Shown: positions 11,832 to 13,859 of the stretch, in pieces
How positions within the stretch are numbered: the first letter of the stretch is position 1
Layout: every line of letters starts with the position of its first letter
From: Candidatus Sedimenticola sp. (ex Thyasira tokunagai)
GTDB lineage: Bacteria; Pseudomonadota; Gammaproteobacteria; Chromatiales; Chromatiaceae
Direction: 5' to 3'
Assembly: GCA_037318855.1 (NCBI GenBank)
Contig: CP134874.1
Location: 372,598-436,597, forward strand
Length of the DNA: 64,000 nt
Translations under genes and position numbers: made by a program
Notes under the pieces: generated by a model
What the model saw: the letters and a program-made list of their open reading frames with translations, nothing else
Told to the model about the DNA's origin: nothing
The model's database searches: none

Positions 11832-12626
11832 ATGCACCAGTATCTCGACCTTATGCGCCATGTGCGCGACAACGGTACTCACAAGGAGGATCGGACCGGC
11901 ACCGGCACCATCAGCCTGTTTGGTCACCAGATGCGCTTCGATCTCTCCCAGGGCTTTCCCCTGGTCACTACCAAGAAGCTGCATCTGCGCTCGATCATCC
12001 ATGAACTGCTTTGGTTTCTTCAGGGCGACACCAATATTCGCTACCTGAAAGAGAACGGTGTACGTATCTGGGATGAGTGGGCGGATGAGAGCGGCGACCT
12101 GGGGCCGGTCTATGGTTACCAGTGGCGCTCCTGGCCTGCACCTGACGGTGGTCATATAGACCAGATCAGTCAGCTGATCGAGCAGATCAAGAATAATCCG
12201 GACTCAAGGCGACTGATGGTTACTGCGTGGAATCCCGCTGATGTGGAGCGGATGGCGCTTCCCCCCTGTCACTGTCTGTTTCAGTTCTACGTGCTGGATG
12301 GGCGGCTCTCCTGCCAGCTCTACCAGCGCAGTGCTGACATATTTCTGGGTGTACCCTTCAATATCGCTTCCTACGCCTTGCTTGCCATGATGGTTGCTCA
12401 GGTCACGGGGCTGGAGCCTGGAGAGTTTATCCACACCTTTGGTGATGCGCACCTCTACTCAAATCATCTGGAGCAGGTGGATCTACAGCTCTCGCGGGAG
12501 CCTCTGCCGTTACCTGAAATGAAACTGAATCCTGATGTGAAGTCCCTTTTTGATTTCTGTTATGAGGATTTTGAGCTGACAGGGTATGAGGCGCACCCCC
12601 ACATCAAGGCTGAAGTAGCGGTTTAA
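11832..12626 (+). CDS. thyA: Thymidylate synthase
   Basis: Converts dUMP to dTMP using methylene-tetrahydrofolate, giving dihydrofolate. Length 264 residues, identical to the classical enzyme. Conserved blocks: [28 protein letters not shown], the active-site Cys in [12 protein letters not shown], and [20 protein letters not shown]. It lies directly behind lgt and 0.7 kb before folA (13362), which regenerates tetrahydrofolate; the small-protein pair sits in between. Confidence 0.96.
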
Positions 12627-12643: not shown

Positions 12644-12671
12644 TTGACCAAGCATAAATATCTGATATATT
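12644..12671 (+). promoter_or_regulatory. Promoter of the first 39-residue gene
   Basis: TTGACC (12644-12649), 16 bases, TATATT (12666-12671), continuing as TATATTAG. The start codon is 30 bases past TATATTAG. A very similar arrangement precedes the second small gene, which supports both as real promoters. Confidence 0.6.
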
Positions 12672-12703
12672 AGCAATCAATTATTTAATTAAAGGCTGCT
12701 GCC

Positions 12704-12823
12704 ATGAACGATGTACTGAGAGTAGATTGTGCCGAGTGGCGCGAGGTTGCCGAGGTTTTTCCAGTTGAGATGGAAGTGATCATGGATATGATGATCGAGG
12801 CCGAGTTCGAGGTCTGCAACTAA
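12704..12823 (+). CDS. Conserved tandem 39-residue acidic protein, copy 1
   Basis: Short ORF (ATG, 39 codons, TAA) with an AAAGG ribosome-binding element 8 bases upstream and its own promoter-like box. The product is strongly acidic (11 Asp/Glu against 2 Arg) and carries Cys at residues 9 and 38. It aligns without gaps with the ORF at 12971: 23 of 39 residues are identical, including DC.EW, FP.EMEVI and DMMIEA. Matching codons differ at third positions, for example GTG ATC against GTC ATT, so the protein is what is being kept. The function is not recognised. Candidates are a small regulatory or metal-binding protein, a RiPP-like precursor, or an antitoxin; no partner gene is adjacent. Confidence 0.75.
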   Translation: MNDVLRVDCAEWREVAEVFPVEMEVIMDMMIEAEFEVCN

Positions 12824-12851
12824 ATTCGGGTGCTGCACAGGTATTCCCGTA

Positions 12852-12877
12852 GAAACACCCGCTTCGGCGGGTGTTTC
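12852..12877 (+). terminator. Hairpin terminator after small gene copy 1
   Basis: Perfect 11-base stem GAAACACCCGC/GCGGGTGTTTC with a TTCG tetraloop. The T tract after it is weak (GCTTTG), so it could also be a 3' stability element. The core CACCCGC-TTCG-GCGGGTG is repeated after copy 2. Confidence 0.65.
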
Positions 12878-12907
12878 GCTTTGTGGAGCGGGAGCAACAA
12901 AAATCAC

Positions 12908-12935
12908 TTGTAATAAGGGAGGTATGGGCTATATT
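12908..12935 (+). promoter_or_regulatory. Promoter of the second 39-residue gene
   Basis: TTGTAA (12908-12913), 16 bases, TATATT (12930-12935), again continuing as TATATTAG. Spacing and the -10 box match the promoter of copy 1. Confidence 0.55.
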
Positions 12936-12970
12936 AGTAGTAGGTGTATTACTAATTAGAGGGCGTTGCC

Positions 12971-13090
12971 ATGAAAGATGCATTGGTATTTGATTGTAGT
13001 GAGTGGCAGATGTTGTCCGAGATGTTCCCTAGAGAGATGGAAGTCATTGTCGATATGATGATTGAGGCCGACGTTGAGCTCTGCAGCTGA
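12971..13090 (+). CDS. Conserved tandem 39-residue acidic protein, copy 2
   Basis: ATG, 39 codons, TGA, with a GAGGG element 7 bases upstream. Same length as copy 1 and 59% identical without gaps. Charge is again very acidic (10 Asp/Glu against Lys2 and Arg21). Cys9 and Cys38, Trp12 and the FPxEMEVI and DMMIEA blocks are all kept. Its own promoter box precedes it and a TTCG-loop hairpin follows. The duplicated promoter-gene-hairpin unit points to a tandem duplication followed by divergence under protein-level selection. Function unknown. Confidence 0.75.
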   Translation: MKDALVFDCSEWQMLSEMFPREMEVIVDMMIEADVELCS

Positions 13091-13133
13091 AGCTTCCGAG
13101 TGACCCCCATACTGTTTTGGGACGATTTCATAG

Positions 13134-13162
13134 CACCCGCTTCGGCGGGTGTTTCAGTTTTT
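13134..13162 (+). terminator. Intrinsic terminator after small gene copy 2
   Basis: Stem CACCCGC/GCGGGTG with a TTCG loop followed by TTTCAGTTTTT. Same stem-loop as after copy 1 but with a proper T-rich tail. Confidence 0.75.
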
Positions 13163-13178
13163 GGCTCTGATATTGTTC

Positions 13179-13292
13179 AACCTAGAATCCTCAGTTGACC
13201 GCTCCATTCTACGGGCAAGAGATTGATTCTAATTGTATTGACTGCAATTACCTACCACACTCTCCACCCTGCCCAACTGAGGATTCTAGGTT
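13179..13292. repeat. MITE-like element with 19-bp perfect terminal inverted repeats
   Basis: AACCTAGAATCCTCAGTTG at 13179-13197 and its exact reverse complement at 13274-13292, with 76 non-coding bases between. No ORF lies inside. The size and perfect ends fit a non-autonomous miniature transposable element or a large intergenic palindrome. No flanking target duplication is obvious. Confidence 0.6.
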
Positions 13293-13343
13293 CAAAGGTG
13301 GTGTTTCACCAATCAACAGGGCCCTGAATCAATACCGGATTGA

Positions 13344-13859
<516 letters not shown>

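Follow-up and report, generated by a model that had tools for sequence, protein, structure and literature searches.

SqrR, BigR, SoxR and sHdrR are two-cysteine regulators of sulfur-oxidation genes that are relieved by sulfur bridging (PMC10451225; PMC12423496). The half-sites of SqrR are ATTC-N8-GAAT, and at its own promoter the binding of YgaV covers the RNA polymerase site (PMC9774250). The literature searched describes no regulator of the sulfur globule protein (sgp) genes, and holds little on how gammaproteobacterial sulfur oxidisers, including the symbionts of tubeworms and lucinid clams, time globule making. In a co-expression network of the Riftia symbiont, the rTCA cycle has the globule genes as its first neighbours, and sgpA reacts when O2 is limiting (PMC11636981), which hints at the conditions under which the small protein described here would be produced.

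The locus lies in a window of 64,000 nucleotides (the whole stretch of DNA analysed) from Candidatus Sedimenticola sp. (ex Thyasira tokunagai), a bacterium that is probably a sulfur oxidiser. Sequence comparison lends good support to the co-regulation of its small acidic protein genes with sulfur globule genes.

Two tandem small genes between thyA and folA

The ORF list of the window holds two reading frames of 39 codons, ATG to stop, which lie as a pair between thyA and folA. Their products are identical at 23 of 39 residues (59%) without gaps, both keep Cys9, Trp12 and Cys38, and the net charges counted from the sequence are -9 (copy 1) and -8 (copy 2). An earlier note, made from the letters of this DNA, had given the two reading frames, the 23 shared residues, the kept Cys and Trp and, as approximate values, the charges; all are confirmed. 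The features of the locus are as follows.

11832-12626, + strand: thyA (thymidylate synthase), upstream neighbour; ORF, with the same neighbour in many relatives
12644-12649, + strand: -35-like TTGACC of copy 1, from the promoter score
12666-12687, no strand assigned: operator-like element of copy 1, TATATTAGCAATCAATTATTTA; 16.8 bits with the globule-only motif (see below), p = 0.005 against shuffles
12704-12823, + strand: small acidic protein gene copy 1, 39 aa; ORF, homology, purifying selection
12852-12877, + strand: terminator-like hairpin of copy 1; folding z = -4.0
12930-12955, no strand assigned: operator-like element of copy 2, TATATTAGTAGTAGGTGTATTACTAA; 5.5 bits, p = 0.045, weak in the main register
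12971-13090, + strand: small acidic protein gene copy 2, 39 aa; ORF, homology to copy 1
13132-13153, + strand: terminator-like hairpin of copy 2, with a T-rich tail behind it; folding z = -3.3
13363-13859, + strand: folA (dihydrofolate reductase), downstream neighbour; its ATG, at 13363, falls within ORF 13344-13859 of the list

The predicted promoters are sigma-70-like: TTGACC-16-TATATT for copy 1 (12644-12671, 10/12), with the TATATTAG box ending 30 nt before the ATG, and TTGTAA-16-TATATT for copy 2 (12908-12935, 9/12), with the box ending 33 nt before it. Together with the folding of both hairpins, these scores bear out the earlier claim that each copy has its own promoter and hairpin; the tail behind the copy 1 hairpin is poor in T. 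An Rfam search of the locus gave no significant RNA family. Between copy 2 and folA stands an inverted repeat (13176-13197 and 13274-13295) with 22-bp arms that are 95% complementary and 76 nt apart, the core of which has no match elsewhere in the window or in the other loci fetched. When the whole genome (one contig, 4.56 Mb) was searched with copy 1, copy 2 was matched at E 9.6e-11 and no third copy was found.

A conserved family under purifying selection

With copy 1 as query, family members were found in 18 of 112 relatives. A profile of 20 members extended the family to 63 of the 210 genomes of the order, which fall in 15 of its 61 genera. When 369 genomes sampled from the class were searched, one further family was added. 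Named holders include Sedimenticola MAGs, Candidatus Thiodiazotropha, the Lamellibrachia and Escarpia symbionts and the Solemya velum symbiont. Members are mostly 36-49 aa long, with the consensus MxxxLxIDCxEWRExAExxPxEMEVIxEMMIEAEEELC, and conservation runs along the whole length.

Median omega is 0.20 over 246 pairs, which are not independent of one another, and 97% of the values are below 0.5. The two copies of the window also differ with omega = 0.20, at a dS of 1.47 that is near saturation, in agreement with the earlier statement, drawn from silent differences, that the protein is what is conserved. Between copy 1 and its same-genus orthologue omega is 0.03, with saturated dS (13 synonymous and 6 non-synonymous differences). 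A lack of homologues and a dN/dS near 1 had been named beforehand as the outcome that would speak against a small-protein family; homologues are widespread and omega lies far from 1. The genes are real, as this distribution and the purifying selection across the family show. Searches of Pfam, NCBIfam, PHROG and PDB sequences returned nothing significant for the small protein and, judged by sequence, the family is new and previously undescribed.

Two irregular loci were observed. In G001, of the same genus, the copy 1 orthologue (L003) is frameshifted by one base after the third codon (ATGAACGAT) while its remainder is under strong purifying selection; the frameshift is either a recent mutation or a sequencing error. 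A single genome, G041, holds four copies of the small gene (L017, L020, L021 and L051), one of which, L051, is truncated.

A palindrome in common with sulfur globule genes

In the alignment of upstream regions, TATATTAG is followed by an AT-rich, partly palindromic stretch, and the box proves to be one half of a 22-bp palindrome, TATATTAG-N6-CTAATATA. The earlier note had correctly seen the TATATTAG box, but had missed the palindromic operator common to globule genes and hence the regulon. The element of copy 1 overlaps both the -10 (12666-12671) and the expected transcription start. That of copy 2 contains an inverted repeat, ATTAGTA-N10-TACTAAT, which forms a stem in RNA folding. The possibility that the operator acts as a 5'-UTR RNA hairpin was rejected, as the copy 1 element folds no better than shuffles and the expected transcription start falls inside it.

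A pattern scan of 14 genomes gave 39 sites, against 14 for a reversed control pattern (one strand). Among the genes with such a site in front are those for exported proteins rich in Gly, Asn, Tyr and Trp, for SQR and for a thioredoxin-like protein. When only the window's genome was scanned, sites found by the plain pattern were no more numerous than those of the control; the argument for an operator is carried by tests across genomes. The exported proteins are sulfur globule proteins, with PF17228 matches at 1.4e-19 and 1e-11 in the examples tested and, for a globule protein from the window's own genome, at 1.6e-11. Of the 210 genomes of the order, 124 have globule genes.

The tests across genomes were made in both directions, the globule upstream regions being a sample fetched from globule-bearing genomes. 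A PWM built from small-gene sites scored at least 10 bits in 35 of 42 globule upstreams, as against 3 of 131 control upstreams. In the reverse direction, a de novo palindromic EM search on 32 non-redundant sulfur globule upstreams, and on these only, returned TATATTAG-TAATTA-CTAATATA, the identical palindrome. Applied to small-gene upstreams, this globule-only motif gave a median of 16.6 bits compared with -11.1 for controls (Mann-Whitney p 9e-29, among related and thus not independent sequences), and 58 of 69 small-gene promoters exceeded the 99th percentile of the controls. When each group was represented by one to six loci, at least one site at p 0.05 or better was present in each of 16 groups (the 15 genera and the outside family). 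The sites of copy 2 and of a few homologues (L010, L017, L114) are weak, and the operator is absent from the globule genes L224, L245 and L254, which belong to other genera of the order. As reciprocal motif tests place the same operator on both classes of promoter, weakly in the case of copy 2, the small gene very probably belongs to a sulfur-globule regulon.

Extent of the candidate regulon and search for its regulator

A covariance model of the palindrome, trained on 31 sites from small and globule genes, was run on 16 genomes and gave 41 distinct sites with an E of at most 1. With genes assigned by reading, 33 of these best sites precede globule or globule-like genes (28) or small genes (5). 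Two of the remaining eight stand before a conserved small membrane protein and six before other genes or no clear gene, among them a metallo-beta-lactamase protein and a hydrolase-like gene. Specificity is partly built into this model, which was trained on the same two gene classes, and the scan is accordingly supportive rather than independent. Among the best seven sites of the window's genome are those of two globule genes, copy 1 and one thioredoxin-like gene (PF13098), whose counterpart in Thiodiazotropha also carries a site; in G217 there is a weaker site at a rhodanese gene.

Operator-like sites were also observed in other settings. One (L331; G000:C1:338641-338666) stands, in the window's genome, directly before a gene that resembles those for RND-type membrane fusion proteins. 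In two genera (L135, L152) the palindrome occupies a divergent promoter, itself conserved, from which two small genes without an assigned function point apart.

A CRP/FNR-type gene beside a strong site in G002 (L277) looked like an autoregulated regulator, and was dropped because its relatives in other genomes have no such site in front. In several genera an FNR-like gene is found between a globule gene and a ccoN-like gene (L315, L316, L318, L324). No operator site precedes the FNR-like genes that lie beside globule genes in several genomes.

Cysteine pair and predicted fold

An automatic count found both cysteines in 54 members and neither in 12; inspection by eye of about 70 members gave 55 and 13, L081 being added to those with both and L111 to those with neither. 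The exceptions are L048, which has the second cysteine only, and the truncated L051. Judging from these sequences, the two cysteines behave as a pair that is not essential. AlphaFold2 predicts the same helical hairpin for both copies, with helices at 9-18 and 20-33 (pLDDT 86.8 and 83.3) and bridge residues 7 and 38, and in the model Cys9 and Cys38 are probably near each other. A PDB-fold search, made with the first model, gave no match for this short predicted hairpin.

Alternative explanations

The gene order thyA-small gene-folA, present in the window and in many genera, could suggest that the small protein modulates the neighbouring thymidylate synthase or dihydrofolate reductase. However, in Thiodiazotropha the small gene adjoins sat, and in tubeworm symbionts its neighbours are a Met/Cys gamma-lyase-like gene on one side and the sdh region on the other (names read from the sequences rather than from profiles). 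In each neighbourhood the small gene is preceded by a promoter of its own, and in most a terminator-like hairpin is present as well. Because the neighbourhoods vary and the gene has its own promoter, the function is not explained by the neighbours, and modulation of either enzyme is very unlikely. An account of a different kind would hold that the element amounts to no more than a strong sigma-70 promoter whose start region is AT-rich, and that the genes, although conserved, are not co-regulated with sulfur genes. TATATT does make a good -10, and overlap with a -10 is seen at many sites. Against this, the 22-bp palindrome recurs independently on non-homologous genes, is mostly missing from the 131 control upstreams and is differently placed in the two gene classes: mostly 16-26 nt before the ATG in small genes, where it overlaps the -10 and the start, and about 55-80 nt before it in globule genes, where it overlaps the spacer and the -10. 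An operator would be expected to vary in this way in its position relative to the -10, a promoter element would not, and the promoter-only account is improbable.

It has also to be considered whether the two cysteines carry the main function, as in a redox- or metal-binding protein. Their joint presence in most members and their probable closeness in the model favour this, but both are missing from genus g42 (in its thyA-folA copies) and from three members of g41, in which the remaining sequence of the protein is conserved, and the cysteine-less g42 retains the operator and the thyA-folA gene order. Because whole clades dispense with the pair in this way, it is not the core function, and we regard a protein working chiefly through its cysteines as rather unlikely. 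The redox or metal link proposed in the earlier note is to this extent upheld in that the cysteines are kept or lost together, and weakened by the clades without them. That note's further suggestion of a RiPP-like precursor, here widened to any secreted peptide, fits a short, duplicated and cysteine-containing protein, but conservation runs through the entire length with no variable core or division into leader and core, and no maturation gene was recognised in the several, varied neighbourhoods inspected. It can be given hardly any credence. Its third suggestion, that the small protein is a regulator, is possible.

Proposed function

We favour, with some confidence, the reading that the pair are paralogues of a new family within a sulfur-globule or sulfur-oxidation regulon, acting as a partner-binding helical hairpin with a switchable cysteine pair. 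The regulon's hosts would be Gammaproteobacteria of the Sedimenticola, Thiodiazotropha and tubeworm-symbiont types. One transcription factor would bind TATATTAG-N6-CTAATATA over the RNA polymerase site, such that, during storage of reduced sulfur, the small protein and the globule proteins would be made at the same time. The molecular part of this reading, that is, partner binding and its tuning by the cysteines, is more tentative. The protein may be cytoplasmic (no signal peptide is seen by inspection) and fold as a two-helix hairpin, whose conserved acidic second helix (EMEVIxEMMIEAE) could bind a partner, perhaps an enzyme or a regulator of sulfur metabolism. In most lineages a disulfide or sulfane sulfur might bridge Cys9 and Cys38, which stand at opposite ends of the hairpin, and so lock or release it.

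Taken further, and as a speculation that we would not yet expect to hold, a new class of small cytosolic protein might couple the thiol or sulfane-sulfur state of the cell to globule storage in chemosynthetic bacteria, both free-living and symbiotic, with control by a dedicated transcription factor, as yet undescribed, that binds before globule, thioredoxin-like and small-protein genes. What is gained is a concrete operator sequence and a candidate regulon comprising globule proteins, a thioredoxin-like protein and a small membrane protein. Inside it stands the small protein, and all of these can be tested in cultured Sedimenticola.

Comparison with known systems

DUF3135 (PF11333) shows a faint similarity, which is not significant, to two of 20 small-protein members (best E 0.041). 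This identity was dropped since the match is below the gathering cut-off; DUF3135 proteins are about 80 aa long and occur in other genomes, but not in that of the window. With the sulfur globule proteins SgpA/B/C (PF17228) the small protein has the palindrome and the host lineages in common. These are, however, exported structural proteins of about 90-140 aa, rich in Gly, Asn, Tyr and Trp, whereas the small protein is acidic and helical and has no signal peptide. Neither copy has a Pfam match, to PF17228 or otherwise, and no SGP was among the matches of 20 members. SqrR, BigR, SoxR and sHdrR are ArsR-type DNA-binding repressors of more than 100 aa, whereas the protein described here has 39 residues and no DNA-binding domain; nor does the operator agree with the SqrR/BigR half-sites, its consensus amounting to TTAG-N6-CTAA. 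These repressors are functional analogues.
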